DNA of 64,000 bases from the NCBI GenBank assembly GCA_947561715.1, contig OX387204.1, positions 377,001 through 441,000 of the forward strand, given 5' to 3'. Source of the DNA: Ascidia mentula (Eukaryota; Chordata; Ascidiacea; Phlebobranchia; Ascidiidae). Both the position numbers and the translations under genes were made by a program. Below, one piece after another: positions 5,801 through 64,000 of this stretch (position 1 is the stretch's first letter; each line of letters opens with the position of its first letter). The notes beneath the pieces are model-generated. The model was not told the DNA's origin, did not search any database, and saw only the letters and a list, made by a program, of their open reading frames with translations.

Positions 5801-8800
5801 TTCTGCCGCCTCCAGTTACCTAGGTGTCATTCTACGCATCACAAGTCACCAAAATTGCGATTTTTCTCGCGAATTGAATCAATTTGCGAACGACGAACAC
5901 CTGCTTATCTTTGTGACCTGTTGTCTTAAATCGTAAACACCCGAGGGCTTGGCTGGACGTTACTGGTCACACTTAAAAGCTGTTTTTGCGTGTTGCGGCA
6001 ATGTAACATGTCTTTAATGCAGACATAATTTCCCGGGTGCATTTTTGTGCAAAAGCGAACTCATCGTTTCTGTTCAAGCTCGTGCAAGAATTATAACCAG
6101 CTCTCAAATACATTACGAATACAATACATTAAAAGCAAATTTACTTGAACCTCGTATGTTGTGTTACTATTTTCGTGTTGCTTTGAAAGTAAAGATTGAC
6201 AAATATTTTAAATCAAAACCATGATTGTTAAAACTAGAATTCTTCTTACACAGAAACGAACGTGGAAGATCACACGGATCAAACTCAACCTGATCTTCAC
6301 AACAATCCTCATCACAACTAGACTCTTACTTCCCTTTCATCTCTCAGAAGGAGCAAATGTACTTCCGGGTTTCTCTGCATCCGACAACCCCGCATCATCG
6401 CTCAAAGACTTCCAAGGTCGAGTTTTGACCTTCAACTATCTGCTGGCATCGAACATGAAAATGTTAATCTTCCCGAACCAACTTAGCTTCGACTGGAGTA
6501 TGGGGGCTGTCCCTGTTGTGGAACGTTTCACAGACCCCAGAAACATCGAAACTTTCAGTTTTTACTTTGTTTTCGGTTGGCTTGTGTGGAAGTCGTGGAA
6601 GTTCCTGAAGCAAAACGGAGAAATTTCTATGAATGGAGGGGCCAGAAAAAGAAGATGCAGCAGCAGCAGCAGCTCAGATGGGGAAACTTCATTTGGAAGA
6701 ATTCTTAAATCTTCACCTCCAGTTGTTGACTTAAACTGTGAAAGAAAAAAAGAACCAGGTTTGTTTTTATTCATTCAATGACTTCACAGATCTCGCTAAT
6801 TATTTTTGTCGGTAAACCAGAAAAAGCAGCTGACAGAATTTTATAACTATCTTGAAACAATATTTACCTTTCAAGGAACGAGTTGTGAAATTCTCCTTTT
6901 CTCCACCTCCATCCTCATCCTGTCACTCCTCCCAGCATCAAACCTCTTCTTCTACGTTGGTTTCGTCCTCGCCGAGCGAATCCTCTACCTCCCCAGTATT
7001 GGGAGCACGATCTTCATCACTGAGATCCTCTTTCATCTGTGGGATTATCTCGTGGAGTTCAAGATGTTCGCACAAATTACTCGCAGGTGTTTTTTCTTTC
7101 ACTTAAGTTACTAAAACCAACCAAACTTGAAGCTCATTTTGAACTTCCTTTTTTTTACATCCCAAGGTCAATGGTCATCGCGTGCAAAGGCGCCATTTTA
7201 TTGTTACTTTGTTGTCTTGCTTCGAAAACTTGGTCGAGAAATTACGACTGGAAAGACGAACTCAGCCTCTACAAGTAAATTATTGTTTATTCTGTTTAAA
7301 CAGAGAACTTGCAAAATCTAATCATAAGTTGTCAAAATCTAAAAATCAGTGGTTGTTGTGATTTCATCATAAAAATGCAGAACCCGTTTCATCGTTAGCA
7401 GTTGTATATTCTGTAATAAAGTTGTTCATCCCAATCGGTTCACACAATGTCAGAAGTTTCACTTTGTATGTGGATAGTTCTTTGCCAAAAACACGATTCT
7501 GACATTGGTGTAAAAATGTTGTGTTGAAACTTATTTAACCAAGAAAGTTGTTAAAATTCCAAGGATGAAAATAAGTGAGAGTTTGATGATTGAAGCTTAT
7601 CTGTTTCAACTCTCACCACAGAGAAAACTATGCGTAGATAATCCCACGTCAGTCGTGAGCTCAAACCTTCCACCTGGCTTAAATACCTAATCACCTCCAT
7701 ATCTTTGCCCACCCATACTGGTGGTATAAGGTTGTTGTGTTGATGAGCTGTCGGTTTACCAGGGGGTTGGGGAGTTATTGACGCACAACAAACTAAGCGT
7801 GCCAGAAATTTGTTCTTGGTTTTAAGCCAAACAGAGCATTACAAAATGTTTTCTTTATCTTTAATTTTTCCGTGAATAAAATGAACAGAATGTTCGTAAA
7901 GCTTGTACTTCACATATGTGTGAAATAATTATTTACGTCAGTTATTTTTTTGTCGTTTTCACGAAGAAAGTTTGTGCTTTCAAACACTCCTGGTGACAAG
8001 TTGTCCCTAATTTTACAAGTTCCACAATTTACAGATCCGGTGTTGAAGTAAATCCAGCCAAGGCTTGGGCGAATCTCGGGAATGTATATCGTACACAGGG
8101 ATTACGTCATAATGCTGAAGAGAGTTACGTCAACGCGTTACGTCATCGAACCAATATGGCGGACGTACACTACAATCTGTAAGTACATAGCAGTTAAAAT
8201 TATATATTCTTGTGGCAACAATTGGTTCCAGAAGTTCTTCACTAATTCTTTACACTTGGTTGTTGTTCTAATAATCGGTCATCTGTCGCACAAGTTTGGG
8301 GGTAACTTGTGCGCTCAAAAAGTACTTTTCCTGTTTAAAAATAATTAAACGCAAAGTGTCAACGAATTGGGTTAAATTTTTCGACACACGTCGGTCGATT
8401 TGTTGAGTACAAAAGGCCCGAGTTAATTCGCAACCAAATATCGAACCAACTTGTAATCCCTCCCCAAACATCACCCCTAACTGAACCACATCATATTTTC
8501 AACACCTGACTTTGACCCGGGGTAACCCGAACCTCAACAAGTCTCACTCGTTGAAATCTGGCAACCACATCTTATACGGATGCTGGTTAGTAAAACTGAC
8601 TGGGGTTGTTTGATGTTGGTCATTGCTGATGGCAGATTATTTGTGATAAAATTGTGTTAAATAAACACGATTTTCTGCAATCGAAATATTTGCACAGTTG
8701 TATGTTTTGCATCAAAACCAACGTAAATAGTTAAAAAGATATAAAAAGTTTACTTAGTTCTGTGTGTGTTATTGCACTGAAGTAAAAAAGTCACAGAAAG

Positions 8801-11800
8801 AAAATGTGAAATAATGTAAAGAAAACAAAACTGGTCAAAAAGTAGGGCGATATCGGTTCGTTTTAACTAACAATATCAATAACAATGGTTTCGTCGAAGA
8901 AGCCGCACCCAGGTGTGAGCAAACGAACCGAAAGGTAACTTTGCCAAAACCAAACAACGTTGTGATGGTGGGGGGGGAACCGTGCCTGGATTCCTTTTAC
9001 GTCAAGAATCAAAGGGGTTGTCCCTCGCTACCCCATCCATCAAACTCGTCCCATAAGGGTGATGTTAATGGGGCATGGGGTGTATGTCATCTTGCATGGG
9101 GTCACCAACCCTAATTACCTTCCCCTATTCACGTATGACTGTATATGCGTGAGGTTGGGACACTTTCTGTGGCGCCTGGAGGTTTCCTAAACTTAATGGG
9201 TGATTTCTAAGTTGTGAGCCTACTTCCGAATCACTGGGGAATGTTTGGAAACTGTGTAGTTGCTTAAATGGTTCTGTTGTATTTTCATAGTTTTTTACAC
9301 GAACAATTTTGGATTTAATGAAGCGGGAAAGTCAAACTCAGCAGGTTTGCAGAATAAAAATAATGTTTTTTATCACACCGAGATTCGAACCCAGTTTTTT
9401 CTCAGCAAGAATCCCGATCCATATTTCTACTCTCACTTGCCGTTGTGGAAAAGCTTACGAATAAAAGCTGGTCTGACATCTGGCGGCCATTTTGTTTCAG
9501 ACATTATTTTCCACTCTTGCATTTCTTCCTTCCATCTAACAATTCCCACACACGAAGCGAGTCATCAACTTTTTGCCACAACGATGCCACACAAAGTACG
9601 ACACTTTGCAATGTTAAGTACGCCTTTCCTGGGTGTTTTTCAGTCGCCTGATTACAATTAACTGATTCGATATTACTATAAAACGCGATAAGGTTTCGCT
9701 TTGCAACCACGCTAAACGATGGTTGTTCAATACTTAATGAAACTACTTGATGTTCCAAAAATGCAACCACAATTTAGCTGTGATTGTGACGCAACAATGG
9801 GGTCGAGTGGTTCACCCCGAAAACTTGTGAACTTTTGTGGGAACCTCAGCCGCTGTTGTTTTCAACCCAATTACCCGCATTCTATTTGCTATGTACAGTA
9901 ACAACTAAAGAGCTTTTCCGCCTTTTTGTCTCTCTTTCTCACTGTTTACGCTTCGGGGCGCTCGCGTCCTTTTTTGAAACGTCACAATAAGGAGAATTGC
10001 TTTCCGGTTGACCTATTCCTTCTCGAGTTACTGTTGTCCGCACGGTGGCGTCGTTGTTTGGTAAACTTCAGGTTGTTGTTTTTGTCGAACGTTCTTGCTC
10101 TCATTGGTTGTCAAGGAGAATTCCTCGTCACTGATTGGTTGAACAAGAGGGATTAGGAGTTCGTTAATTGGTGGAACTAATCCTTGTTTGTGGTTGCTGT
10201 CGTATTTCCCGCGTGCTTTGCTTGAAAAAAAATAACAGAAATACAATGTAGTTAATTCAAACCAGTTTAACCCTTCTTACCCAATACAAGATAGAGCATA
10301 GTTTATTCTCTACCACCAATAGATGCTGAGCATTTTACCTTCTACATTTTTCGTGATTGTTTCTTGTGGTAAAACCCTGAAATCATTTACAACGAACCTG
10401 CAAATGTAAGCACAGTATTGCTGGTGCAACGTAGGATTGCTTGTACAAAGTGTTATAAACCTAATTGGTAGTCTTTGCCACTGCCATACATACATCACCA
10501 AACCAACAATTGTCTCCGTAGTACTTTAAAATTAAATTATTCCAACATATTAAATTTATTTGCAGAGGCCTTCTCTACCAGGAAAGCAAACGATATCGAG
10601 AAGCAGAAGAACGATATATCGAAGCGATAAAGTATCGTCCCAAACTCGTGCTGGCTCATCTTAACTTGGGGGTGATTATGAGTGAACAAGGACGAACTCA
10701 TGAAGCAAAGAAGGTTAGTTGTGTTATTTAATGAGGTATAGGGTTTTTACAACTGAAGAAATTCTGTATCATGTCGCTGTATTTTTAAGGCTGTTTTTAG
10801 TCACGTAGTTTCAAGTGAATCAGATTCAATAAGTGTTGACTACACGTGGTTTCTGCATGTCTTACATGACAAAGTATTTTTTACACTCGCTTCTTTTTAT
10901 GCTCAACCAGCTTTGCTACAAAGTAGTTTGATGAAATATTCTGTAAGTCTGCCTGAATCATTGTGGACTGTGATAAAGTTAGTTTATCTCCACAGGAAAC
11001 ACAACTTCTGTTGCTTTTTTACTTTTGTATAAAAAACATTGAAGAAATGTAGTTTCGCGCGTTGAGAAAAAATGTGAAAAACGCCAGAGTGAATAAGGTA
11101 AAAAGTTTACAAAAAAGCAAGTAAATGGCTGGCGGTCGGTTGACGCTGTCCCAGAAACGTTTTTTTTAACAAACTCAAGTACAAGATGTCTTAAAACAAA
11201 CAATTTCACCTTTTCCTTTTGACACAAAATATTTTTCTTCCCAAAATAACTCAACGTGAAAAAACACCATAAACGACAAAAATGTTAAAGTCTTTGAGCG
11301 ATGGCGCTCGGTCTTCTCCCCTCCCACCAAGAAGAAGGATTCCATGATCGACTGCTTCTGATTCCGCTTGTGATGCTGATCAGTGATCCTGCTTTATCAC
11401 GATCCGCCCTCCAGCAACTCGGCATACAGCAGTATTTCAAGTCTTGGAGCATCCGCCTGAACTCCAGTCTGTATTTGGGGTTGAGGAATCCATATAGGAT
11501 TGGATTAACAACGGCGTGGAACCAAGAGAGCATCCCTGCAGCAAACTTCACCGTCGCAGTGATGCGGAATTTAAAAATCGCCTCCAAGACGCTGATGACG
11601 GAGGTTGGGAGGACACAGATCGCAAACGCTGCACAGATGATGAGACCGCTGTAAGCCAGATGTCTCTCTGCCTCCCTCCTCCTCTGTCTTCTCCTGCTCT
11701 CCGTTGATGAAGCGTTGCTATGGAGTGAAGAGTTTAGAAATGATTTGCGTCTCCACGTGCTGTACATGGATCTTCGTCGCCCGTTTCTTGCTTTTTTACT

Positions 11801-14800
11801 CAAATTACTTTCAATCCCCAAGTCCTTATTTGTCCTGGAAGGATTCCGTTGGTTGTTCCGGGTTGTCGTGTATTCGTATCCCGCACACGATATCGAGTCC
11901 TGTCTCGATAGATTTTCCACGGAGTAACGATACATGCGACTACCGACCGAAAGTCGACGATCTTCAACTGATAAATTATCGTTGGAGGGATTAACTGCGT
12001 CAAATGAAACCGAGAAGTTTCGATTCCTGGGTGAAGAAGTCTCCGCTTCCATAGCCGACTGTCTAAGTCCTCCGTCCCCATCCTTCGCTTCTTCCCGTGT
12101 AAGTTCCTGTGCGTTGAACGCACTCTCTTCGTACTCCACCTGGTGCTGATCTTCCGCGTCATCCCGTTGTATCGAGTTACTCCTGTAGGTTTTCAGGAGC
12201 TTTCTTACCAGATTCTGGCACCACCTGCAGTCATCGTGCGAATCTGTGTCCTCCTTCTTCAACCCGCTTCTCCTCGCAAACTCCGCCACCAAGGAAGACG
12301 TACTCTCCTCCTCCTGCTGATGCGAGTGAGCTTCCTTCTCTGAGCTGCAAACTCCACTGTTCCTGTGTTCATCAGTTACGTGATCGATCACAATCTTCGG
12401 GGTTGAGTTCTTCATGCTTCCCATTCTTCTTGAAAACCGGTTGATTCCCACAGATCTTGCTCTTTTTCTTGATCCCTTCCTCTTCTTGCCTCCGGTGGTT
12501 GAAGAAGTCCTCCGCATTGGTACCGTAAAACTTCTTTTATCCATGAAGTGCTGTTTGAAATCCTTAGAACTCTTGGAGTCATTGTTAAGACTTTTTGCCG
12601 GGGAGTTCGACTTCCCATCACTGACTCCTCCGATGCTCCGAATCCTCTTCAAAGGTCTCAAAATCCTCCTCGGAGTCTCCAGCGTCTCTTTCTCTTTAAT
12701 CGATAAATTCAAGGGAAGATTTAACAAAGATCCGAGGTCTTCTCTCATTTGATGTGAGGGCGTCATCAAAAGGTTTGGCCTTTCCTTGATGGAGGTTTCT
12801 TTCAAAATCACTTGTTGATTTTGCTCCTGGCGGACGCCCGCCTCTTCCTCCCCATCTCTGGGTGTCTCCTCTGACTTGTTTTCCGCTGTTGTCGAGAAAT
12901 CATAATCGTTGTGATCCACGGACATGGTTTTGGAAGTTGGTTCCGAGTCGATTGTTGAGAGGATTGTAGAGAGGGCGTTGTTCGCTTGCAGTTTCCCTGA
13001 GGAGTTGATTGTCTGTTCGGAACGCATCCGAAACATCCCTGTTTTAATCGAGGTCGAATCGCTTTTGTCTGTTGAAAAAGTGCCTCGTCATCATTGATTT
13101 TATTTCCCCGAAATGAAACTTTATCAAATGTGGATCGGACACACAAACCTCCCCAGCTCCTTCTACGGTTGATGTCTTTTTTTGCTTTCATCTTGAAGGA
13201 ATCTCTTCTGCCTCCAGTGATGAAAATATCCGGGGAAGACATCGCGGATCTTTGTCTTTTGAATTCCGTTACTGTGAAACGTGAGTGATGTAAAATATCA
13301 AAACTATGACAACCATTGAGGATTTACACAGGAAATTCATTCGTGCGGAAATCACTTTTGCAACTAAAACGAAAAGTAAAAAATCCTCTATTCGGAAACT
13401 CACAACTTTCTTCAACTTTTGTGACGACTTTTGTGGGAGTTGCCGCTGGAACTTGCAAATACGTCATTGACTTTGCTTCAGCGGTGTTGTTGGACGTTTG
13501 TCCACTTCCAGCCTCGGTGCATCCCCTCTGTGGAGACTGTGGTCGGCTGTCTGCTCGCTGACGTCCAGTTGCGGCTCGAGGTGATTCATTTATGTCCCCG
13601 CCAGTGGGCGATGCGGAGAAGGGAGTCGGATAATGTTCAACCGACTTCCGGCACCGTTTCACTTTGTGCAAAATTGCCCTGAAAATAAACAAACTGTGGA
13701 AAAAGTGACAAGAGATGTTGCTTGAAAGCTTGATTGAATTAAATTATAACCAACCCAGTCTTAACCAACCTAGGCTTAACTAACCCAGGCTTAACCAACA
13801 CAGGCTTAACCAACCTAGGCTTTATACTTCACAAGCATTTCACGGTTTGCACGAGATTGAATCCGTATCTCGTTATTGACGTTACTTTACGTTTTAAGTC
13901 GATAATGGCCGGACTCTCTTCCCTGAGCACGATCGTATCAAGCCGTGATCAATACACGGGACGGCAGGGGATTATAAATCTCTTGTGTTTGGGAATCCGA
14001 TTGAAGCCACTTGTTCATTGCATCGACTTACCGGTATAGAACGATCAGCGTCACAGCTGGAACTAACTGTAGAAGGATGTTAACAGCTATCTGATAATAT
14101 TTGAGGGGGCTCGATCCAAGCTTGCTTGTGGAAAGAGCACAGCGTAAACTTGATGGTCGCCATAGAAACGCGTCAACTGCAAACATAAAAAAACATGCAA
14201 TTGTTTAAACACATGGGGGGGGGGGGATGAATGCTTACACAACAATGTCAGTAAAACATGGACTGTTCATTACGTAGTCAGCTGTGATGTACGGCTCGGA
14301 ATGCTATTCCACCTTAAGCGGATTGTGGTGTCTGGTTGTCCCGTGTAATGCGTTTCCCTCGTCAAGCTGATGTTATTGATATATGGATGTGAATAATTTT
14401 GCTACGGTTAAAATTCGTGTCGTGATGAAAATAATTGTTTAATGTTGTTTCTTACTAATTGAGATTAAAACCTGGCAACAGCCCATGCAGCGCCTCCGAT
14501 CTTACAATATATTATTAACGTTTAGATGTAGAGATTCCAGAAGTCTTTAAGCGAGATGTTAACCTCATCCTGTTCTCGAATTCGTGGCATTTACTTTGGA
14601 ATGTTTAACGTTGTTGACATGTTTCCACATGGTTGGTACAAGCGATGCAAATAAACGTGCAAACTTTGTTGGTACGATGTGTAAACCTACCCTAAGTTCT
14701 GCATAATGCCACTGGGTCAAAGAGGTCCTTTGAATCTGGTTGGAATGTTAGGCGTTTCGATGTGGTTTCGTGCGAAGGAAGAAGCATGACCTGAAAGTGA

Positions 14801-20800: not shown

Positions 20801-23598
20801 CAAAACTTCTTCCCTTATTTTTCTCTCTTTATATTTTTGTTGTTGGGGGAATAACCTTGACAATTATGGGTGTAGAGTTTCCAACATTGCAACCTGTGAT
20901 GTAAGCTGGCTGCAAACCCTCTCAACTCTCAATCACCAATTTTATCCATTTCTTTTTGCGCCAAAATTAAACTCGGTAAGTTTGTTACGTCATCAAAGGT
21001 AAATGAGGGTATTCCCCTGAGGATTGCATTCCCTCGGCTTTATGGATGCCGACAACCCTTCTATCGCGATTATTGGCAGAAAGCAGAAGCTTATAAACAA
21101 TAATTAACGTTTTTCCTGTGGGTACTAAAGCTTAAGTAATCTGTCTTGACAGTCAGGGCGTGCTTAGGGGATATGTGACCTCTGCCAGGCACCAAGGTCA
21201 CGCCGAGGCACGTGGCTTTTTCTGTGCGTTCATTACATTGGATCGAATAACAATTCCTGCTTCAACGCCTTTTTCATCTGACAGGGAATTAATAATTTAT
21301 ATTGGCGGCGCTTGTGTTGATCGGAGTTCTCCACCCAGCCACCAAGTGATTACATTCAGGGATCCTAGATATTCTTACAACCTCATAATCACCCCCTCCC
21401 TTTATGCAATGTGAGTCGTTTATGGCCACGGATGATTTGAGACATCATTAAAAGCGATCAAGTTAACTTTAAGGCGAGTTCACTTTATGACATTGACTTT
21501 GAACCGAAAGCAGGCAAGTGACGTCATCTCAGTGGAATTATGGGAAAGCCAAAAATAGCGGAAGTTGCAAATTCCAAAGGGGAGGAAGCAGTACATAGTG
21601 ACATTAATAATACATTCTGCATTTCCCTGCACAAACAATCGTTCAAACAAATGTTTGTCACATAAACATGTTTCCTTTTAACGAATTAGTTTTCCTGAAA
21701 GCGGCTTTGAAAGCAGAAAACCTACATATATGCTGTTTGTTTTTTAAACCGTTTCCCTTTGCTTTATTTCATCGCACTGAATAGAAAGGGAAGGTTGCAA
21801 TGGAATCAATCCAATCAGTTCAAGCATGCAATGGTGATATAAGTATGTTAATGTTAACAACCGCATTTTCAACATAAACCAAAGACAAAAAAGTTGCAAA
21901 AAAATCGTGTTGGAACAATTCGTTACAGTTTGACTTGAAAGGAATGCAGAACTGAGATTATTAGAGAAAAGACCTTGACCTTTTAGCTTTTAATACGGCA
22001 CTCGAACTTTCAATCTGGCAAACATCCGAAGCGAGAGCATCAAAGGGTTGGTATATTAGGGTGGAGACGATGCAAGTTTGTTGCAACTGTTTCCTATCAA
22101 CCCCCCCTCCCACATTTGCTGCAAAGCCATCATATGAATCATTCATGTTTTCCCTTACCGCAATTCCGACCTCGGAAAGACGACTTTCCAGGACAAAGCC
22201 AGAACTCTACTTCTGTGGTTAACTTTTATTACGTCACAAATCTTCATTATGTCCCAATCGATTGTTTCCCGGTAATGGCGGCGAGGATTGAAAATGTCAC
22301 AGACGTGCCGTCGCCTTTTTTTCCACTTTCCTGCCATCAAAGGAAAGATTCCTAAACTTTAAACTTTCAAACAATCTTCCACACTTTCTAGCAGGCAATA
22401 TGTTCTGTTGCACTTAATTATTTCCATTATTGAAGTTTTTTAGGTTTAGCGACAAAAACCGAAACCGTTTTGTTTGATTTACTGCAATTATTTCTATAAT
22501 TAGTACATTATAAAACTAGTAAGTGTTTCAATATAAGTTTAAAGATTGAAAGCATGGTTGTCACGACATTGTCCGAAACCACAACGAATTCGTGAATATT
22601 CCAATGTTACTTAAGATCTACGAACAAGCTGCAATTATCAGCGATGAAGGAATGCGTGACCCTCGGGCGCACTCTCGTGGCAGAACGTCAGCTCTATACA
22701 ACCTCGGCTGTTTATTGGCTGATGAAGGAAGCCACGTGGACGCTGTCTCAGCCTATCAGCGCGCGCTAAAAATGCGACCATCCGGTTACCAGACTCACAG
22801 TCTTTATAACATGTTGGGTGAGTTTCAATCGCTTCTGTGGTTGTCATATCTGTTATGTTTAATAAATATGAAAATTGTGAAACGGTTTTATCAGGACAAT
22901 CCCTGTTCCACCTTGAACGTTACGACGAAGCAAAGTCAAGTTTCGACCAATCACTGGCCGCCAAACATGATCACGTGCCAACCCATCTGACGTATGCAAG
23001 ACTTCTGACTCACGTGGGTCGCTTTGACCAATCAGAGCGCTTCTACCTCAGGGCATTGGAGTTGGACGTGAAGTATTTGGCGACGTATCAACATTACAGT
23101 AAGTATTTAGGACAACTATTTGACAAACCAAGTACATTTCATGAAACCTTATTACTATCTTCAGGCAACTTCCTTGCCGCTAGAGGTCGCCACGAGGACG
23201 CGGCACGACTAATGACGCAGGCAGCTCTACATGGGTCACGTGATTACGAGATTGTGTTGGGCGCCGCGAATGTTCACAGACAAGCTGAGAATTATAAGAG
23301 CGCTGAGGATTACTACAGGAAAGCCGCTCAACTGGAACCAGAGGTGAAACATTAATTCACGCTTGGCTGCGTTCGGGTTTGAATAAAAACAACAGAAAAC
23401 ATATTTTTTCACGCTTTCTCACAGTTCGCTTCAGCTCACATGAATCTGGGAGCTATCCTTCACTTGCAAGGGAAATACAACGAAGCTAAAACATGTTACG
23501 TCACAGCGCTGTCAATCAAGCCCGATGACGTCATGATTTTGGACAATTTGTCCAAACTGGAGAAATTAACAAAGAAAGTAGAGCCTAAAACGCGATGA
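2891..23598 (+). CDS. TMTC2: TMTC2-type transmembrane and TPR-repeat protein (5' exon missing)
   Basis: ER membrane protein of the TMTC family, whose members act in O-mannosylation of cadherins (family knowledge). Exons read: 2891-3028, 3091-3230, 3309-3401, 3470-3732, 4013-4408, 6254-6758, 6876-7086, 7167-7274, 8035-8178, 10566-10713, 22616-22817, 22895-23098, 23165-23343, 23425-23598; all phases agree and give about 967 residues. The N-terminal half has the conserved [18 protein letters not shown] block, [32 protein letters not shown] and [20 protein letters not shown], with several hydrophobic helices. The C-terminal half, from [17 protein letters not shown] onward, is a run of TPR repeats ending with a TGA stop. 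The THSGS-type motif favours TMTC2 over TMTC1, 3 or 4. Human TMTC2 is 836 residues; the excess is mostly a Lys/Arg- and Ser-rich insertion in exons 4-5. The start of exon 7 could instead be near 6830. The start codon exon was not found. Confidence 0.93.
4409..6253 (+). other. TMTC2 intron of 1.8 kb
   Basis: The intron separates the exon ending AIFSK from the exon beginning KRTWK. I see no coding exon or known repeat in it. Confidence 0.7.
7275..10565 (+). other. TMTC2 introns around the first TPR exon
   Basis: These bases hold two introns (7275-8034 and 8179-10565) flanking the exon at 8035-8178. No coding exon is supported within them. A segment near 9360-9450 resembles a degenerate tRNA-like B box on the minus strand but does not fold as a tRNA. 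Confidence 0.6.
11285..17407 (-). CDS. Class A (rhodopsin-like) GPCR with giant third intracellular loop (5' end missing)
   Basis: Seven-transmembrane receptor, presumably signalling through G proteins at the cell surface. Exons in transcript order: 17407-17226 (TM1-TM2, with GNSI and NLCAVDL), 17134-16971 (TM3, cysteine in ELCTG, NRY in place of DRY), 15799-15708 (TM4), 14176-14032 (second outer loop cysteine, TM5), 13678-13404, 13271-13149 and 13068-11285. All phases agree, giving about 920 residues. The last exon contains TM6 with CVLPTS instead of CWxP, TM7 with [13 protein letters not shown], and a Cys-containing tail. Between TM5 and TM6 lie about 600 residues rich in Ser, Arg, Lys and Glu. 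The NRY motif and the IVHSSKYRKL loop recall melatonin-receptor, GPR84 and Tre1/moody-type receptors, but I cannot assign a ligand. The first coding exon is not established. The gene is nested antisense in a TMTC2 intron. Confidence 0.9.
13747..13821. repeat. 15-bp tandem repeat, five units
   Basis: Five head-to-tail units of a 15-base motif with consensus taaccaacccaggct, with one or two substitutions between units. It lies in the GPCR intron between the TM5 exon and the first loop exon. Confidence 0.9.
19700..19777 (-). CDS. Possible 5' coding exon of the nested GPCR (weak)
   Basis: An ATG at 19777 on the minus strand opens a hydrophilic stretch starting [12 protein letters not shown], with an N-glycosylation sequon (NVS), followed by a GT at 19699. 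This is what a short extracellular receptor N-terminus could look like, and it lies upstream of the TM1 exon on the same strand. However, this donor would leave phase 0 while the TM1 exon as read needs phase 1, so another exon or a different boundary would be required. Treat as a candidate only. Confidence 0.2.
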
Positions 23599-38166: not shown

Positions 38167-38919
38167 TCTGTTTGGTTTGAAAAACACTATTGTGACTAAA
38201 ATGTCTATCACCACCTTTCAAAATAGAAAAAACGTTTTCAATAACTGCTATAGCTTTCTGTACAGCCGTCTAAAACTTTCATGTTGTGTGCTATACATTA
38301 CATATGAACCTCTTTGGCCTCCTTATATGCATATACGTTCGTAACCATCCACTAAGCCTACAGAGACAGAATGACAATAATCATAATTCCGCTATCCGAT
38401 GAAACCCAGTGCCCCCATGTTATAAAGCCTTTCAACCTCGCTCGAACTGAAGTAAATGCGATACACGCCCCAGTGAACAAATGAAAGACGCCCCAGACCA
38501 TTTGGCGAAAAGCTTTGTTGCATCACAATAGAAAATCATTGGCGCGTGACGGTATCTTCTATATTAAAAGAATGTGAAATAATCTAACTTAAAATTTACG
38601 ATGAATTGAGTATTCGCGAATTAACAAATGTTTAAAACTACTCTACCGTAAAACAATCTTGTCATGCGTGACGCGTTGTTATTGGTTGTTTTTTTGTGGG
38701 TGTTTTCATGATGTGGCAAGTTTCTTTTCGCAAAGTTATGCAACGAAAATTGCTTGAAAGATTTTTTTCTGACTTGTGGAGCAAAAAGTGTAGTATTAGG
38801 TAATTTACTATGTTATGCACATTTATAAAACGTCGAATACTCACGTGTTTGGCTTACACAAAATCATCGTTAATTTTACATAAATTTAGGGTTTCTGAAT
38901 AAGTGGTATAAATTTGAAT
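38167..38919. other. Divergent promoter region
   Basis: This region separates the start of the small secreted-protein gene (minus strand) from the first isomerase gene (plus strand), so it should contain both promoters. A possible splice acceptor (aaatttag at about 38890) lies just before the isomerase start codon and could serve a 5' untranslated or trans-spliced leader exon. Confidence 0.5.
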
Positions 38920-40134
38920 ATGTCACCAGTGCTTAAAATTAAGGGAGCTGTGCAGAATTATGCATGGGGAAAGAATGCAAGTGAGAGTGCAGTTGCAAGG
39001 TTGTGCTGTTTACAAAGTATTGATCAAAGTAAACCTTATGCTGAACTATGGATGGGAATTCATCCCAAAGCTCCGAGTACTATCCATGATGGAAAATCCC
39101 TTGCAGATTATATTGAAGAAAATGTGGATGCCCTTGGTGAAAAATTGGTAAAACGGTTTGGAACTCTTCCATACTTATTTAAAGTTTTAAGTGTTGCAAA
39201 ATCTTTGTCAATTCAAGCCCATCCCGACAAGGAGCTGGCCGCGAAATTGCACCAAGAAATGCCTGAAGTTTACAAAGACCCCAACCACAAACCGGAGATG
39301 GCCATAGCTCTGACACAGTTTGAAGCTTTGTGCGGATTCCGACCTGTGAAGGAAATTTTGGATTTTTTTGATGTTGTACCTGAACTGGCAGCAGTGGTTG
39401 GCGAGGATTTGGTCACTAAACTTAAAAACGAACACAGACCAAAGGAAAATAATGAAAGTACTGCTTTAAAGGATTGTTTTGCAAAAGTTATTTTGTGTGA
39501 AAAAATTGTTAGAGAACAACAACTGAACCAGTTGGTGAACCGGGTGATTAAGATGAGAGATCAAAAGTCAGATCTTACAAGTGTTAATGGGGAACTGCTT
39601 CTGAGATTAAATTCCAATTTCCCTGGAGATGTTGGTTGTTTTGTTATTTATTTTCTCAACCATATTTTCCTACAACCTGGTGAAGCAATATTCCTCGCCG
39701 CCAATGTTCCCCACGCTTATCTATCGGGAGACTGCATAGAATGCATGGCTTGCTCTGACAATGTGGTAAGAGCTGGATTGACCCCAAAGCTTGTGGATGC
39801 ATCAACCTTATGTGGTATGTTGGAGTACCTACCATCGAGTATTGAACAACAGAAGTTCAAACCAGTCACCACAGATGACCCATTCGAAACAGAGTACAAT
39901 CCACCTGTGGATGATTTTGCTGTTGTTTGCCTCAAAATTCCAGCAAGTACAAAAAGTTACAGTTTGCGTAAGCGAGATTGTGCCAGTATTCTTCTAGTTG
40001 TGTCTGGTGATGCCACAGAAACTTCAGGCATTCACCTTAAAAGTGGAAGTATTTTGTTTATTCCAGCTTATGAAACTGTTACAGTTGCAGCAAGCAGTGA
40101 TGTCCTTGCCTACCAAGCTACTTGTATTTTCTAG
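38920..40134 (+). CDS. MPI: Mannose-6-phosphate isomerase, copy A (intronless)
   Basis: Zinc enzyme interconverting mannose-6-phosphate and fructose-6-phosphate, feeding GDP-mannose and glycosylation. A single exon of 404 residues (human 423). The N-terminus has the type I motif NYAWG; IQAHPDKELA supplies Q99 and H101, HKPEMAIALTQFEALCGFRP supplies E126, and NVPHAYLSGD supplies H265. These four correspond by position to the zinc ligands Gln111, His113, Glu138 and His285 known from the fungal enzyme. The ATG at 38920 was chosen because copy B begins at the matching position. Vertebrate MPI genes are split by several introns, so the intronless form suggests retroposition or intron loss. Candidate poly(A) signals are at 40409 and near 40448. 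Confidence 0.95.
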   Translation: MSPVLKIKGAVQNYAWGKNASESAVARLCCLQSIDQSKPYAELWMGIHPKAPSTIHDGKSLADYIEENVDALGEKLVKRFGTLPYLFKVLSVAKSLSIQAHPDKELAAKLHQEMPEVYKDPNHKPEMAIALTQFEALCGFRPVKEILDFFDVVPELAAVVGEDLVTKLKNEHRPKENNESTALKDCFAKVILCEKIVREQQLNQLVNRVIKMRDQKSDLTSVNGELLLRLNSNFPGDVGCFVIYFLNHIFLQPGEAIFLAANVPHAYLSGDCIECMACSDNVVRAGLTPKLVDASTLCGMLEYLPSSIEQQKFKPVTTDDPFETEYNPPVDDFAVVCLKIPASTKSYSLRKRDCASILLVVSGDATETSGIHLKSGSILFIPAYETVTVAASSDVLAYQATCIF

Positions 40135-42555: not shown

Positions 42556-45034
42556 ATGTTTTCGACCAATCCTCCTACTGTGGTTGTGGTTGGGGCTGGG
42601 GCAAGTGGGTTGGCAGCTGCTGCGAGACTAGCTGGGAACGGAATTGCAGACCTTGTCGTACTGGAAGGTAGAAACCGAACTGGCGGAAGAATATCAACAC
42701 TTCAAATAGGTAACTTGTTTTAATTAGTGTACGTGTGTGCATGAATGTGTGAGAAGCGGTTTGAGTATCTGCCATACAGATCAATCAAACTACTTAAACG
42801 AGGTTATGAGCAAACAATTGTCGACCTACATACGAAATACACGGATTGGTTTTAAGTTGGTTCCTTTTTACAAAATCGCTCATTTCACACAACTTCTAAA
42901 CAAATGTGGTTGCAAGTTATTTTTTGGTGGTCGTTTCCTATGCACAGTATGTGTGGGTACGAACTGCGATGTCATCATGCGTGTTTACCCGGACTCAACT
43001 CTACTGCACACGCACTCGATTCTCGTCACGTTTATAAAAACATTCGACAACTTTGCAGGGGACCGACGAATTGAGGAAGGGGCTTCTTGGATACACGGCA
43101 CGGAGGGAAATCCCATTTCTTCGCTTGCAAAACAAACGGGTTCTGTTCACAAAGAATGGTTTGCACTGTGACGTTACATGTACTGTTGTCGCGATATTTG
43201 TTTGTTTTGCCGCTAAATTCCTGCGCGCTGTCATATATACATTAGGGCCAAGGTCATCTAGGCATAGGTGGTGTATATCGGGATGAGATTAGCTCATGAA
43301 TGTTGCCCTCTGTTCGGAATTATCTTTATCTGTGCGACATCAAATTTACTGTAAGTGTTTTGTGTATTTCTATACGAAGCAACAAACCTCGCATGTCAGC
43401 TGGTTTAGAAAAACCGGTTTCGCTTCCTTCCCGTAATCATCATCAGTTTCTCATTCAAATCTGAATTAGATCTTGGAGGTTCGACCACACAAGTAGTGCC
43501 GTGTGCAAATCCCTTACTCATCACTAATGAGAAAATACTCGCAGGAATTACTTGGAGAAAATCAAAAACTGTTCCTGGCACAAACAGAACGGGGAAAAAC
43601 TAACCGCCGATGACGTCACACTGGTAGTGGATGCGTACAAAACCCACTGTGACATAATAGATGAAGTTGCTCTCCCCTCCGAGGAGGAACGGGAGCAGAT
43701 GAGGAGGATGAGTTGGAGGAATCTTCATCACTACCTGGAGGAGAAGTGGGAGGAGCTGATCCTGGAGGGATGCGATGAGGAGAAAAGGCGCCTCTTAGTG
43801 TCGGCACTTAGTGTTTGTTACCAGAAGGAATGTCAGGACGCAGGGACGGGAGACCTGAGGAGTTGCGCTGTCCACGGTTTCGCCGAATACCTCCCTCTGG
43901 CCGGATGTGACGCAACATTACCCAACGGTTACAGCGAAATACTAAAACCTTTACTACGGGGAATCCCCCGAAGTGCGATTCGACTCAATAGCGTCGTCGA
44001 GCGAATTGAGTGGTCTCCTGGCGGTTGCCGTGGTAACGCACGATGTAAACCGGTCAAGGTCGTGTATAAGTGCGCCGCTAGCGGAAAGACGGAAATTGTA
44101 CAAGCCGATCACGTGATCGTGACCGCTCCGCTTGGGTGCATCCGAGATTTGAGTACCACTCTTTTCACTCCGTCACTTCCGGATGACAAGATGAGTTCAT
44201 GCAGAAGGTAAAGCATTGTGTTGAGTGCAGAGTGCAGAGTATTCGCTCAACTCCTTATTCACTCAGAATAACTTTTGACGTGGTCGACAAAATAGCCCTG
44301 CTCTACGACAAACCTTTCTGGTCACCCGACCATTCCTCCATCGGTCTTCTGTGGGATGACGTCACAGAGAATCACTGGTCACGTGATGTAGTATATCTGA
44401 TAGCCCGGGGAGACGGGGAATCCCCATGGTTGGAGGTAAGTGGTGTTGGTTGGTTGGTTGATATGATTTACTTTGGAATGCCGACTTTTCAGACGTGGCT
44501 TTGCGGAAAACACGCGAAAGAAGTTGAAAATTTGACGGATGAAGAAGTCGGATCCAAACTGACGGAGATCTTGAGAAAGTTTGTCGGTAAAAATGCTCAG
44601 CCAGAACATTCAGATAAGCCCGTGTAATGTTAACTAATTGTTAAGTTGAAAGCGTGTATGTTTTTTATAAACGCCTCACTTTTAAGAGTTTTTTTGTTTA
44701 TTTAACATTAACGTCACCTCCAGGTTCTCACGTTCCCAAGCCATCCTCAACCCACGTGACCAGGTGGGGGTTGGACCGCTTCGCGCGCGGTTCTTATATT
44801 TCACTTAATCCGAACTCCTTCGGGGAGGACATCGATATTATGGCCGAACCGTTGCCTGGCAACAGTTACCCCGAGCAACCATTCCAGCTTCTGTTCGCTG
44901 GGGAAGGAACCTCAAGAAGTTATTTTGGAACTGCTCACGGCGCTGTTTTGTCAGGAGAACGCGAAGCGGATCGATTGTTACGTCATTATATGGGATTGTA
45001 TAACGGTGTCGCCGTGACGAAAGTCAACGCTTGA
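42556..45034 (+). CDS. PAOX: FAD-dependent polyamine oxidase (PAOX/SMOX family)
   Basis: Flavin amine oxidase acting on acetylated polyamines or spermine. Exons: 42556-42709, 43059-43139, one unresolved exon, 43545-44207, 44267-44435, 44493-44586, 44724-45034. The N-terminus has the FAD Rossmann fingerprint VVVVGAGASGLAAAARL with VVLEGRNRTGGRI; then GASWIHGTEGNP; ADHVIVTAPLGCIRD and VDKIALLYDKPFW in the middle; and the FAD-closing block LLFAGEGTSRSYFGTAHGAV near the C-terminus. The exon between 43139 and 43545 must enter in phase 1 and leave in phase 2; 43293-43350 fits the phases but is a poor family match. The start is the first in-frame ATG before the Rossmann motif. The protein ends TKVNA, without a peroxisomal PTS1 signal. 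PAOX fits slightly better than SMOX, but the two are hard to separate. It sits between two isomerase copies. Confidence 0.9.
43408..43452 (-). repeat. Short dispersed repeat with hammerhead-like fold, copy 2
   Basis: On the minus strand: GAGAAA, CTGATGA, an 18-base arm without obvious pairing, GAAA, palindromic CCGG, TT and TTTCT. AGAAA pairs with TTTCT. The copy shares the neighbouring attcaaat and the catcatcagtttctc core with copy 1 at 25777-25819. It lies in an intron of the amine oxidase gene. Confidence 0.35.
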
Positions 45035-45384: not shown

Positions 45385-45645
45385 AACAAGTTGGAAAGAG
45401 ATTTATGGATTTAAGCTGACTGGTATTGGAATTAGCATTTTTTTGTGGCACTCAAAAACGTTGAGAAATACCACAAAAAGTTAAGAAATATGACAAAAAA
45501 TTAACTTTCGCAACAACCCGCAAGCTGGCGTCGACAGACAAGTGCGTGTTTCCTCTGACGGATGTTGATAGTTTCCCAGGCTCAAAGTAATTGTTGCGAC
45601 GACTGGTTGCAGACAGTACTTCCAAGTTGCTGTTTACACAAAGGC

Positions 45646-46860
45646 ATGTCAGCAATATTTAAAATAAACGGCGCAGTGACGAACAATGACTGGGGTAAGG
45701 TTGGGACAGACAGTGTTGTAGCCAAGTTGCATTGTTCTGGCAGCATACAAGAAAATGTACCATATGCTGAATTGTGGATGGGAATTCACCCTAAAGCCCC
45801 AAGCACTATGGAAGACGGGAAACTGTTGCAGAAATATCTGCAGGAAAATCCAACCGCCCTTGGAGAAAAAGTAACAAAGCAATTTGGGACTCTCCCATTC
45901 CTGTTCAAGGTATTGAGTATCAACAAGGCGCTTTGCATTCAAGCACATCCCGACAAGGAGCTGGCCGCGAAATTGCACCGAGAAATGCCTGAAGTTTACA
46001 AAGATCCCAACCACAAACCGGAGATGGCCATAGCTCTGACGCAGTTTGAAGCTTTGTGCGGTTTCCGACCTGTTAAGGAAATTTTAGATTTTTTTGATGT
46101 TGTACCTGAACTGGCATCTGTTGTTGGCGAGGATTTGGTCACTAAACTTAAAATTGAACACAGACCAAAGGAAAATAATGAAAATGCTGCTTTAAAGGAT
46201 TGTTTTGCAAAAATTATTTTGTGTGAAAAAATTGTTAGAGAACAACAACTGAATCAATTGGTGAACCGGGTGATTAAGATGAGAGATCAAAAGTCAGATC
46301 TCACCAGTGTTAAAGGGGAACTGCTTTTAAAACTTTACTCAGAATATCCGAACGATGTTGGTTGTTTCTTAATGTATTTCCTCAACCACATTTTCCTACA
46401 ACCTGGTGAAGCAATATTCCTCGCCGCCAATGTTCCCCACGCTTATCTATCGGGAGACTGCATAGAATGCATGGCTTGCTCTGACAACGTGGTAAGAGCT
46501 GGATTGACCAACAAGTATTCGGATAAAAACACATTTTGTTACATGGTCAGTTCTTATGCAGCCGGGCCCGATTATTACAAATTTCATCCAGTTTGTGTCG
46601 ATGACTCACGCGCGATGTACAATCCTCCAATTGATGATTTTGCTGTGGTTCGGTTTATGATCCCTGCAAGCAGAGAAATGTACAGTTTGCCCGAACAAGA
46701 ATGTGCGAGCATCGTGTTGGTGGTTGCTGGGGAGGCGGAGGAGTTGGATAAAGGAATCCTACTCTCACGTGGGTGCAAGTTATTTATTCCTGCTAATGAG
46801 CAAGTTGTTGTGCGTACAAGAAGTGATGTTCTTGCCTATCAAGCAACTTGTATTATTTAA
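45646..46860 (+). CDS. MPI: Mannose-6-phosphate isomerase, copy B (intronless)
   Basis: Second single-exon isomerase, 404 residues, colinear with copy A without gaps at least through the central region. The proposed zinc ligands Q99, H101, E126 and H265 are all kept. The N-terminal motif reads NNDWG against NYAWG in copy A. Residues about 100-228 and 249-288 are almost identical to copy A even at synonymous positions, while the N-terminal 100 and C-terminal 115 residues are clearly diverged. An upstream in-frame ATG at 45562 would add 28 residues; the ATG at 45646 was chosen because it matches the start of copy A. Both copies look functional. Different expression or substrate preference is possible but not shown by sequence. 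Confidence 0.93.
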   Translation: MSAIFKINGAVTNNDWGKVGTDSVVAKLHCSGSIQENVPYAELWMGIHPKAPSTMEDGKLLQKYLQENPTALGEKVTKQFGTLPFLFKVLSINKALCIQAHPDKELAAKLHREMPEVYKDPNHKPEMAIALTQFEALCGFRPVKEILDFFDVVPELASVVGEDLVTKLKIEHRPKENNENAALKDCFAKIILCEKIVREQQLNQLVNRVIKMRDQKSDLTSVKGELLLKLYSEYPNDVGCFLMYFLNHIFLQPGEAIFLAANVPHAYLSGDCIECMACSDNVVRAGLTNKYSDKNTFCYMVSSYAAGPDYYKFHPVCVDDSRAMYNPPIDDFAVVRFMIPASREMYSLPEQECASIVLVVAGEAEELDKGILLSRGCKLFIPANEQVVVRTRSDVLAYQATCII

Positions 46861-59370: not shown

Positions 59371-60600
59371 CACCGATAACACGCCACTGTTGGTTCCAAG
59401 ATTTCCAGTCAATCGTAGTAAAGCCACGCCTCTTTCACTCCCAACTCACTCGACCAATCGGAACCCGACAGGCCAACGGCAGGCGAAGGCTGAAGCGCGT
59501 GATGTAACTGTGACGTCAAGCAGGAGAGTATATATTGATGCGTTCGGCCGGGGTTGGTCAGAGCGCCTTGTTGCAACTTGAAGCGGGTGTGGAAAAGGAG
59601 GTCAAGTTTTCAGTTGGCGCAAAATGTCAATGCGAAGTTTGGACTCCGTTGTTTTTCGAACGAAGGAAGCCAGAATATTGTCGGGTCGTGTGCAGTCTCT
59701 GTCGTGTTTCAAAGTACCTTAAATGTTTGCTTTAGTAGATGTTGCAAGATCTTCACGGGGCGTTTGTTTGAAAGCGCAACAACCAAATTAATTAAATTTT
59801 TAATGCGGTACAAAAATAGCCTACCGGGTCGTCGTAAAGTTTAAAACGTCTCAAACTTCAAACACGAGACGGAGGTGAAGGGCGCCAAAATTAACATCAA
59901 TCTCGAAATACCAGGGGAAGTTGAAATCTTTGATCCCTGCTCATGGACGACGCTCATGTCGCGATGTGTGGAAGTTCAATTACGGAAATAATCCTTCAAC
60001 ATTTTGACGACCTTGCGTGCGTCGGCATTGCGAGGTTGTAGCAATGTTTAATCGCGCTCTAATCGCGCTTGGACGTCCTTAAACATCGGCGTTAATTGAA
60101 CCCCAATCCTGTGATTGCCTGCTATTTATATCCGTATAAATCTCGAATTATAATCGCGGCTTAAATCGCGTTGCGACGTTGACAACTTTTGCCCTCGGGG
60201 TCGCCTGGATCGACGGAAGCCCGACTCGATTATCGCGATACAACCGTTCAGTGGAGAAGAACTCGGCCACAAAATACTGGTAGTTTGTTGAGCACGCGAC
60301 CGGAGAAAAAATGCCCAGAATCGAGTTTAAAAGCCAAGTTCGACGCCGGGAGAACTCAGAAGCCCGTGTCGTGCCCGGGGTCGAACATCGAGGCTCTTAT
60401 CTCGAAAGTTCTGGTCTGAACTTTTCGGCATAAAATGTTTTTATATCGGATTTGTGTTTTTATTCGAGTAAACGCGAGAATAGTTTGTTGAGGCTTTGGA
60501 ATTATTTAGGATTTTTAATTAAACATATTTTGTATTATTTTTACTTAGCGTTGATACTGATTGTTTAAAATACAAACAACCTGAAAAATATCCTTAAAGA
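59371..60600. other. Upstream region of the insulin-like gene
   Basis: No gene is supported. An open stretch at 59866-59993 encodes KGAKININLEIPGEVEIF and CVEVQLRK before a stop and looks protein-like, but it has no clear partners. Between 60048 and 60240 the hexamer ATCGCG occurs five times. Confidence 0.45.
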
Positions 60601-61208
60601 ATGTCGGCCAAATGTTTTCTGCAACATCTGATTCTCAGCATCGTTGTTTTGTTCCTCGTCGTTTCACAACTTGAAGGGAAATCTCTAAATTCTAACATTG
60701 CTGTGAGGAAACGGGGCACTGGAAAGTGCGGAAGGGAGGCTGTTAATTTCCTTCGTTGGTTCTGCGAAGATCCAAGCTTCAATTTCCCGTTTAAATACCA
60801 CAGAACTCACTGTAAGTGTTTCACCTGAAATTTGCAGTCTCAGTGTTACAACTTGCCTTTTTTTAAAATCAGTATTTTTTGTTTTAGAAAAAATATATAA
60901 ATCCCTTTTTGCAAAATCATTTTTAGTGTTTTTAACTTCCACAAAACCTGTATTGTTTTGTTTTTATTTAGTCAGGAATTTTATCGAGTATTTTTTTTGC
61001 AGTGATTCTCAAAACCCACTTCAAACCGAACAAGATACTTTATCCGTTCCAACACCAGTACGCGCGATGCTGCAAAACCGACTGTAGTCCCAAGGATTTC
61101 AAGTGGATGTGTGCGGTACACAGGGAAAGCAGGGAATGTAAGGGAAAAAGTCACTCGAGAAAAGCCGAATGTGAGATCAATGTGTTCATTAACAATCCGC
61201 TGCCATAG
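60601..61208 (+). CDS. Insulin/relaxin-superfamily prohormone
   Basis: Secreted peptide hormone precursor of 138 residues from exons 60601-60811 and 61003-61208. A signal peptide covers about residues 1-26. The B domain has C43-x11-C55 (KCGREAVNFLRWFC), and the A domain has CC-x3-C-x8-C (C93, C94, C98, C107; ARCCKTDCSPKDFKWMC), the superfamily signature. The single intron is phase 1 and lies in the C domain, the conserved superfamily position. A dibasic KR (37-38) precedes the B domain. The C domain has no clear dibasic pair, and after the A domain comes a 31-residue basic extension with two more cysteines (C116, C127), so the product may remain one chain, as in IGF. An AATAAA lies at 61695. 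Ciona is known to have three insulin-like genes; which one this is I cannot say. Confidence 0.9.
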
Positions 61209-64000
61209 AGTCCATGCCGCTGAGTGCAAAAATGCCCTGGCGCTTTGGTTTTAAGCAGAGGCCCATCGAAGGAAACATTTCGATCCTGTGTACATAGTTT
61301 GCCCGGCCGGTAGGAATTGATATCCCGGTTCCCCTGTGGCCATAAGTCCGCCGTCAGTTTATTTAAAGCCACTGTGAATTGTATTTCGTTCATTATATGA
61401 GTTTCCATTGTTATTTATTATTTGATTTGTTGTTGCGTTGGAGCCACCGTAAGTTTGGAAATTCCCGTCATTTGTTTATCAGCTGCTGTTTCCACATTTA
61501 TTTAAAAGTTTAAGTTGAGAACACAACCCGATGTTAACTAATGCATAAAAACAATTTGAAGAAGTAAGTGAAGAAGATTTCGACTCACAATGTTTTACTC
61601 TTTCCCGATCACTATTTATTATTGTTGTTTTTTTGTTACTGTACGTGTGTGTTTGTACATCTTTCTTCGCATTGTTCTATTTCAGTTTTGAGCCAATAAA
61701 AATTGTTGCAAAAGAAAATTCACTTTTATTCATAAGATTGCTGAGATAAAATGAGTTTCAGGGACTTAGTGGAACGCAAATATGTGAGGGTTTTAGAGCG
61801 TGGGTTATAAGGTTGATAACTTCCAGTTCTGACGCACAAACTTTATTAAATTATTCAAAATTTTCTGGTCAGGCGCCGACAAATGGTCGCGAAAACAAAA
61901 TGGTTGCCAACATCGAGGTTTTCCTGGGAATGTCACCAATTAAATTCCTGAGATTGAATTAAAATTCCTTATGATGTTATGTGACAAATGTTGGTAACAA
62001 TATCGTTTGTTGCGTAATGCGGAACCTCCACAAACGACGTCAAGTTGAAGATATTTACCATGACAAGAAGATTGCTTGGAGTTTAGATTGTAAAACGCAC
62101 ACAGCTCGTTTGAGGACAATAAAGTTTTGTTTTGTTTCGGAAATTGTCTCGCATGCTTTACGGGGATCATGGTTGGGGTTGAGTCAGACTGGAAACTTGT
62201 AATTTATTTCCACAAACTTAAGACTCTCCTCAGTCGCCCTGAATGCTAACACAATGGGAGGGGTGGTAATTTGCAACATTATCACGACAAGTTGTTTATT
62301 TTGAAAGTGAAAATTGGCGCCTGCGTCGCAATGGTTATGTCTCGTCGTCAAGCCAATAATTTTATCGTCTATTCGTGAAGTTTACCAAACATTTCTAATT
62401 TGAGCGCTAGCATCAGAGCGATTAGGGTTCGAACGTTTTTTCGGGACAAAGGAATTGACTCGAACTTAAACTGCAGATGTTTGTGCCATTCGAGAACTCT
62501 TTTCACCAGATATGTTGATTGTTTTGTTCGCAATAAGTTTGAAAGCTTTTATGTTTAAACCTGGGTGTCACAAACTTCAGGTTGAAGGTTACGTATTTGT
62601 TCCCAGTTAAATTTGCATTAACGCGATTATCTGGATTAGATTTTCTTATGCCCAACCCACGTGTAATGACACCCCTACACGGGCTAACCCTGGATAAGAT
62701 GGCACATTACCTTGCCGAAAGTTCATATGAGTTCAAATATATGACGAGTGGTTAGAAATGATCGCTAATATTTTATCCAAATATGGAACGGGACGTTGAC
62801 GCCTTCACGGTTCGTTGACCACGCTTCCAAATATAGCCCAGAACCAAAATACTCCGTGCGTAGTAGTAGTAGTTGCTAAAAGAGCAGGGGTTGGATGCGG
62901 AAATTGTTTGGTGCGAGGGAATAGGTTGATAGTGTCGTGGTATTTACGGTTGATCCTTTGGGGAAAAGGTCGCTCGTGTTTTAAAATCAATCACATTTTT
63001 GTGAAGGAATGTAACCCAATATTCCACTCCAACCTCCGATTCCTCCTCCTCTTGTTTCTTTAATTCTCCTTCTCCTCTCACACTTCGAACACAACTACGT
63101 CTGTAGCAAGTGGAAAATTTTGCCACCTCTGGCAACATTCCATTCGGTTTAAGGTTCTTGTAACGTGATAATGGCACACGCCTCGTACTACAGCGTACGT
63201 TGTGATATTCTCCCAACTCAACAAACTACCTCCAAAGATCAAAGCGAGCGCGCAAACCGCTTTGGAACGAATATTTTCGAATGCTTCCTCGTTTCAAAGT
63301 TTCGTCGCGTAGTCATCGGAAAACTTTTAATTATGATGTCATACCGGGCATTGTAGATCGCTATCCAGGTTTGAAAATAACTCGTTTTGACGTCGGTTGG
63401 GTCTTTCGGCGCCGTCGTGAGCTATTTCTATCTTGTCGTTGTTGGCGTAAAATTTTTCCACTTTTAAAACACCGGAACCCTGACGCCCTGGAAATTTGCG
63501 CAATCCATGTCTCAAACCAACTTCAAAATATCATAATTGCTTCGAGTTGAAGTTTGTGCAAAAAGTTTTCGCTTGGCTTCGTGACAGAATGTATCATCAG
63601 GGGAATTCACCGTGACGTCGAAAAAGCATCTGGAAAATCCGTAACATTTTTGTCTGGACGGAATGTGTGACGTCAACGATGATATTTTTGTTGTTTTGTT
63701 GAAATAAAATGTTGTTTGCAAATTGCCGGGCAATCTCGCATGGTTCATTTTCATTTTGGTCACGTTTTATCAGAAAAACCATCCTAAGCGTTTTGAAAGC
63801 GGCTTGTGAGGGTTGGAGTTTCTGGGAAAAATGTCGCCGATAAGAAAGGGCGTGTTTGCATTGAAGATAATAACGTGAACATATGAACACCTTCGGAATT
63901 TTTCGTGATGGTTTGAGCTTGCTTTTGCGTCATTTGCTTTCGTTTCTTTTTCTGTGATTTTTATAGTTCGGGAATATGTTAAAAGCCTCCGCAGTTTTTG
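61209..64000. other. 3' flank of the insulin-like gene, no further gene recognised
   Basis: The first 490 bases are probably the 3' untranslated region of the insulin-like gene, up to the AATAAA at 61695-61700. The rest contains only short open frames on both strands without recognisable domains or coherent splicing. Confidence 0.5.

Follow-up and report, generated by a model that had tools for sequence, protein, structure and literature searches.

A candidate insulin-superfamily gene with an IGF-like layout in the ascidian Ascidia mentula

Exons and encoded protein of the candidate gene

The 64,000-nucleotide stretch of Ascidia mentula DNA analysed here (the window; assembly GCA_947561715.1, contig OX387204.1, called C72 below, positions 377001-441000 of 19,661,885 bases) contains at 60601..61208 of its forward strand two open exons that a 191-bp GT-AG phase-1 intron joins into a frame of 138 amino acids (positions are those of the window unless a contig is named). 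From its sequence features we read this locus as a two-exon ascidian gene for a divergent, secreted insulin-superfamily ligand with the layout of an insulin-like growth factor (IGF), and we give that reading a probability of roughly 0.7. The original prediction had proposed these coordinates and this exon model, and both agree with the sequence. A search of the whole genome places exon 1 at C72:437601. The exon joins are readings of the splice-site consensus, and the donor of the intron outscores 98.3% of the GT sites in the window when a consensus matrix is used.

The predicted protein opens with a Met-led hydrophobic leader, judged by eye to run from residue 1 to about residue 22–26, and has cysteines at residues 5, 43, 55, 93, 94, 98, 107, 116 and 127. 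Cys43 and Cys55 form the C-x11-C framework of a B domain and Cys93, 94, 98 and 107 the CC-x3-C-x8-C framework of an A domain, which is the spacing of the insulin superfamily, and the A segment also matches the insulin-family signature. The 37 residues between Cys55 and Cys93 contain neither an adjacent basic pair nor an RxxR; the only adjacent basic residues of the protein are RKR (36–38) and RK (123–124). After the A domain comes a tail of 31 residues that includes the RESR site, its length being subject to the uncertain end of the exon. The original prediction had claimed from the sequence the six superfamily cysteines, a signal peptide, and a C domain that is interrupted by a phase-1 intron and has no obvious dibasic pair. 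All four are seen here, the signal peptide as a hydrophobic leader and the intron as a reading of the splice consensus. The features of the locus are collected in Table 1; if the possible core promoter listed there were used, it would imply an intron in the 5' untranslated region with an acceptor near 60548, and another TATA-like word lies at 60135.

Table 1. Predicted features of the candidate gene (window positions)
Feature	Position	Strand	Remarks
CRE-like TGACGTCA (59511) and TATATAT (59529)	59511..59535	+	possible core promoter, a motif reading
Coding exon 1: ATG at 60601, leader, short pro-segment ending in RKR, B domain KCGREAVNFLRWFC, start of C domain	60601..60811	+	211 nt, ends in phase 1
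RKR, residues 36–38	60706..60714	+	four residues ahead of the first B cysteine
Intron, donor ACT/GTAAGT, acceptor TTTTTTTTGCAG	60812..61002	+	191 bp, phase 1; falls in the presumed C domain, as is usual for the insulin family
Coding exon 2: remainder of C domain, A domain RCCKTDCSPKDFKWMC, basic tail with Cys116 and Cys127, stop TAG at 61206-61208	61003..61208	+	exon end uncertain
RESR, residues 111–114	61122..61133	+	sole RxxR of the protein; possible convertase cut between the D and E parts
Donor-like AAT/GTAAGG over the Cys116 codon	61135..61143	+	phase 1, score 4.0; possible splice site
Donor-like AAT/GTGAGA over the Cys127 codon	61168..61176	+	phase 1, score 3.27; possible splice site
AATAAA, candidate poly(A) signal	61695..61700	+	about 490 bp past the stop; first of five A[AT]TAAA up to 63000

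Relatives on the same chromosome and membership of the superfamily

The best match to the candidate among the sequences compared lies on its own chromosome. A search of the assembly (195.8 Mb, 79 contigs) with the Pfam Insulin profile (PF00049) gave four places at E up to 10 and none at the default threshold, and an IGF-like paralogue lies at C72:14,098,791-14,100,073, 13.7 Mb from the candidate. Its 244 amino acids to the first stop come from four coding exons (ends set by consensus, the last exon assumed to be terminal) and run in the order leader, RRRSHYCGQSLVNKLLEHC, C domain with a phase-1 intron, CCRDECTPEKLERYC split by a second intron, and long tail; the second intron, of phase 2, interrupts the A domain between LER and YC, and the third follows the D part in phase 0. 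The joined paralogue passes PF00049 with 23.7 bits over residues 50–109 (the cut-off is 23 bits), and 0 of 2,000 cysteine-fixed shuffles aligned as well with human IGF2.

Both proteins have a polybasic site three to four residues before the B framework (in the paralogue an RRR three residues ahead of its first B cysteine). CG-x3-VN-x-L recurs in the two B domains and C[ST]P in the two A domains. Each C domain (residues 65–94 in the paralogue) is interrupted by a phase-1 intron, with LIL at or shortly after it, and lacks an adjacent basic pair. The paralogue differs from the candidate in that it passes PF00049, has four coding exons and an A domain interrupted by an intron, carries RxxR sites in the C domain and ends in a long tail free of extra cysteines. 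The exon 1 models of both are 211 nt long, which we regard as a coincidence. Six comparisons were made by local alignment against free or cysteine-fixed shuffles, and that with the paralogue was the best of them: its score of 69 was not reached in 10,000 free shuffles and was reached in 7 of 10,000 with the cysteines fixed (0/5,000 and 5/5,000 in a first run). Multiplied by the six comparisons, the frequency of 7 in 10,000 becomes about 0.004. For human IGF2, IGF1 and relaxin-3 the cysteine-fixed shuffles that did as well numbered 337, 376 and 413, each per 10,000.

At C72:14,027,638-14,048,241, 50 kb away from the paralogue, insulin-like genes form a tandem cluster with members in both orientations. 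A composite query gave four B-type exon matches there (three with an in-frame TAA, which may be intron) and three clear A-type exons, plus an extra weak match with a stop at 14,038,618. The A framework of these genes is CC-x3-C-x9-C. PF00049 gives two of the A-type exons 21.5 and 22.7 bits, a little below its cut-off, and one of these two passes PF03488 (21.3 bits, cut-off 21); PF03488 pointed to three A-type exons on this chromosome, one of them already among the PF00049 matches, and the two tandem B-type exons that were tested passed no family. Together these predictions suggest at least five insulin-type loci on one chromosome, namely the IGF-like gene, three or four tandem genes and the divergent candidate.

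The candidate is probably a divergent member added to a known family, of which the animal appears to possess several genes. Olinski et al. (2006) reportedly described three insulin-relaxin-like genes in Ciona intestinalis, and two insulin-superfamily sequences of Chelyosoma productum are said to be on record; these are likewise ascidian members of the superfamily, likened here to the candidate by description and not by sequence. A search of one literature collection for Ascidia mentula together with insulin returned a single paper, off topic by its title, although the gene may be annotated elsewhere. How the insulin-like genes of ascidians relate by orthology to the insulin and IGF of vertebrates is described as unresolved (PMC4361685).

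A custom profile of 12 insulin-family members, made in two builds, ranked the candidate first of 1,322 sequences (itself and the 1,321 open reading frames (ORFs) of the window, its own exon ORFs included) with 16.8 and 16.1 bits. One of 20,000 free shuffles did as well in each build, as did 38 of 5,000 cysteine-fixed shuffles in the second, and hhalign aligned the six framework cysteines over 54 columns with a P of 0.00056. The architecture was also compared with 10,287 dinucleotide-preserving shuffles of the 64-kb window. In 237 of these the two frameworks lay within 1 kb of each other, together with an open frame or a phase-1 intron that could be spliced, and 5 had a Met-led hydrophobic leader besides; an earlier run gave 25 of 1,500 and 0 of 1,500, respectively, and 21 of 400 shuffles fitted when distances up to 3 kb were allowed and no leader was required. 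By itself C-x11-C is uninformative (104 in the window against a shuffle mean of 96.7), and CC-x3-C-x8-C is rarer (2 against 0.15); the second occurrence of the latter, at 49283, was rejected as isolated and with a stop directly upstream. The full architecture is thus rare per window, at about 1 in 2,000, but not unique genome-wide. Between 46.8 and 64 kb, the 85 ORFs of at least 60 amino acids matched no Pfam family at E up to 0.01, which leaves the candidate exons without a competing known domain.

Several results weigh against this assignment. PF00049 was matched neither by the whole candidate nor by its core at E up to 10, and the only Pfam match was to DUF7415 (E 0.27 and 0.032), far under that family's cut-off. 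A phmmer search of the PDB sequences gave two weak unrelated matches and no insulin, and NCBIfam, a prokaryotic library, gave no insulin match. The probability reported by hhalign is only 29.7%; adding the paralogue to the custom profile lowered the candidate to 11.8 bits, a value reached by 310 of 5,000 cysteine-fixed shuffles; and the two profiles gave slightly more than the candidate's score, 17.6 and 16.7 bits, to an out-of-frame chance ORF that lies 129 kb away, outside the window. In the alignments, 5,126 of 10,000 cysteine-fixed shuffles did as well against human insulin and 1,964 of 10,000 against a gene of the tandem cluster. Position A19, which is Tyr in insulin and IGF, is by spacing a Met, position B6 is a Lys where Leu is usual, and the A chain does not begin with GIV. 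Codon bias is indecisive: it falls between the coding and the non-coding range, and 12.5% of 1,160 control ORFs equal or exceed it. A genome of 196 Mb should by chance contain one or two architectures of this kind.

The behaviour of PF00049 was calibrated on four known members, three of them entered as joined A and B chains. DILP5 (39.7 bits) and bombyxin (44 bits) exceeded the cut-off, and INSL6 (21.6 bits) and starfish RGP (13.0 bits) fell under it. Since these two members are missed as well, a miss by the candidate does not amount to exclusion; a Pfam scan alone can overlook such genes. The profile search by which the original prediction proposed to try family membership did fail with Pfam, and the main support for the claimed membership comes from the paralogue, which shares the candidate's chromosome. 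Neither the Pfam miss nor the rarity among shuffles settles the matter. From the likeness to the paralogue and the architecture taken together we consider that the candidate very probably belongs to the insulin superfamily, on a sequence signal that is modest.

Motif matches of this kind need control, and two others were rejected. The first is the chance ORF, mentioned above, that outscored the candidate: this relaxin-like A-chain ORF at C72:308,409 (minus strand), CCKHGCTSVALQRFC, lies in DNA that carries an Argonaute-like exon in another frame, which we take to be such by eye and from its motifs. A PF00049 match of 20.3 bits elsewhere in the genome falls in a locus that reads by eye as adenine phosphoribosyltransferase. 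A genome search with human IGF2 and relaxin-3, run with no positive control, gave no match.

It had also been suggested that the candidate might inform the origin of chordate IGFs. Alone it cannot do so: the tree with other family members that was proposed for this purpose has 37 columns and 14 sequences, sets the candidate beside the relaxins at a support of 42 with 25 at the next node, and gives it the longest terminal branch. Such a tree does not place the candidate.

Tail, processing and receptor

In the processing that we favour the leader would be removed and a convertase would cut at RKR. Because the C domain offers no classical cut site, the most likely product is a single B-C-A chain in which the C domain stays, held by the three standard disulfides. 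The basic tail could then be trimmed at RESR or kept, and trimming would remove both extra cysteines. PMC8286064 gives KSAR and KSER as the cut sites of the human IGF precursors, a placement comparable to that of RESR in the candidate, shortly past the A domain.

The ligand would signal through a tyrosine kinase of the insulin-receptor type. A fragment of the human insulin-receptor ectodomain, used as the query of a one-way search, matched seven places in the genome (E up to 0.1); C70:16.74-16.77 Mb holds six of these, and the best match has 55% identity over 55 residues. Receptor affinity cannot be assumed, because the relaxin motif is absent and A19 is Met. On C70, two sets of exons that resemble the insulin-receptor ectodomain lie about 20 kb apart (16,743,714-16,750,385 and 16,770,412-16,772,734) and could be either a tandem duplication or a duplicate of the assembly (haplotypes). 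At the scale of chromosomes, the insulin-type loci and the receptor-like exon sets provide material for a synteny-based orthology where trees of short sequences fail.

The original prediction regarded the arrangement as intermediate between insulin, relaxin and IGF. The evidence does not support it as special in that sense; the relaxin motif is absent and the best-matching paralogue is of the insulin/IGF type. Vertebrate IGFs are not known to have an extra cysteine pair, in which they differ from the candidate as read. Nor is the layout tellingly intermediate, because IGFs retain the C domain (PMC4361685), echinoderm and hemichordate (ambulacrarian) IGFs have charged C-terminal extensions without obvious convertase sites, and members with eight cysteines exist; PMC8286064, which gives the last two points, also describes the phase-1 intron as common to insulin-type genes.

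The claimed oddity of the protein rests on the extra cysteines, and these are the weakest part of the finding. The basic C-terminal extension and both cysteines of the original prediction are indeed seen in the reading frame, but the cysteines are not confirmed: codons 116 (61137-61139) and 127 (61170-61172) are both TGT and both sit on phase-1 donor-like sites, which would split them at 61138 and 61171, and this makes the cysteines doubtful. The tail past residue 115 may be intron read through. It is a serious possibility, although we lean against it, that exon 2 of the same insulin-superfamily gene ends at the donor in codon 116 or 127, that another exon supplies the real tail and that Cys116 and Cys127 (or Cys127 alone) are not in the protein. 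This would be compatible with the gene reading given above. Both donor-like sites outscore the gene's own donor, which reaches 3.03 with the consensus matrix, and the paralogue, besides its C-domain intron, has one that interrupts the A domain and another, of phase 0, after the D part. On the other hand, the candidate frame runs on to a stop that is followed some 490 bp later by AATAAA, and no downstream exon was identified, although no systematic search for one was made.

A two-chain hormone of the insulin type, with a C peptide cut out at the monobasic sites KYHR68, KPNK81 and R92, appears unlikely. Its KxxR and KxxK sites would flank a 13-residue segment of the C domain, and monobasic cuts there are conceivable despite the lack of an adjacent basic pair and of RxxR. 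That same lack argues against the two-chain product, and the dibasic sites on either side of the C peptide by which a two-chain insulin is recognised are absent from the candidate.

We think it quite improbable that the product is a ligand of the relaxin or octinsulin type acting on a leucine-rich-repeat G protein-coupled receptor. CGRE opens the B framework of the candidate as it does in vertebrate relaxins (human relaxins 2 and 3), and the tree position beside the relaxins, with its support of 42, points the same way; against this, the relaxin B-chain motif RxxxRxx[IV] and a dibasic pair in the C domain are lacking, the best match is the insulin/IGF-type paralogue, and relaxin-3 aligned no better than IGF1 or IGF2. 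PMC8286064 describes octinsulins as having one coding intron and eight cysteines in the mature protein; the candidate would match them in both numbers if its tail is real. The same paper gives octinsulins KR convertase sites round the C domain, whereas the candidate has no KR in or after its C domain. A 600-codon ORF of the window, at 11288-13087 of the minus strand, was considered as a possible relaxin receptor; its end, preceded by a long stretch that is charged and rich in Ser, matches the final portion of rhodopsin-family receptors, and its best PDB matches, over that end, are somatostatin and orexin receptors.

If the tail were real and kept, the single-chain ascidian IGF proposed here might have a fourth disulfide, Cys116–Cys127, looping the basic tail into a compact, positively charged module beside the insulin-like face, possibly for a second receptor, an LGR that bears an LDLa module. 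Such a receptor has been proposed for IGF in PMC8286064; we consider this version of the ligand highly unlikely.

That the exons are chance open frames fitting the framework, and not a gene, also seems very improbable: the missing Pfam insulin match, the weak codon bias, the 5 of 10,287 shuffled windows that fit and the existence of chance A-chain look-alikes would agree with it, but the likeness to the paralogue extends beyond the cysteines (7/10,000), donor and acceptor are consensus-like, and the candidate ranked first among the sequences of the window in the profile search.

Neighbouring genes in the window

Elsewhere in the window, two ORFs of 411 and 433 codons (38899-40131 and 45559-46857) encode phosphomannose isomerase type I, and flavin amine oxidase exons lie between them (43531-44208 and 44187-44624). 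A TMTC O-mannosyltransferase domain and TPR repeats at 6212-6778 and 22822-23352 are possibly parts of one gene.
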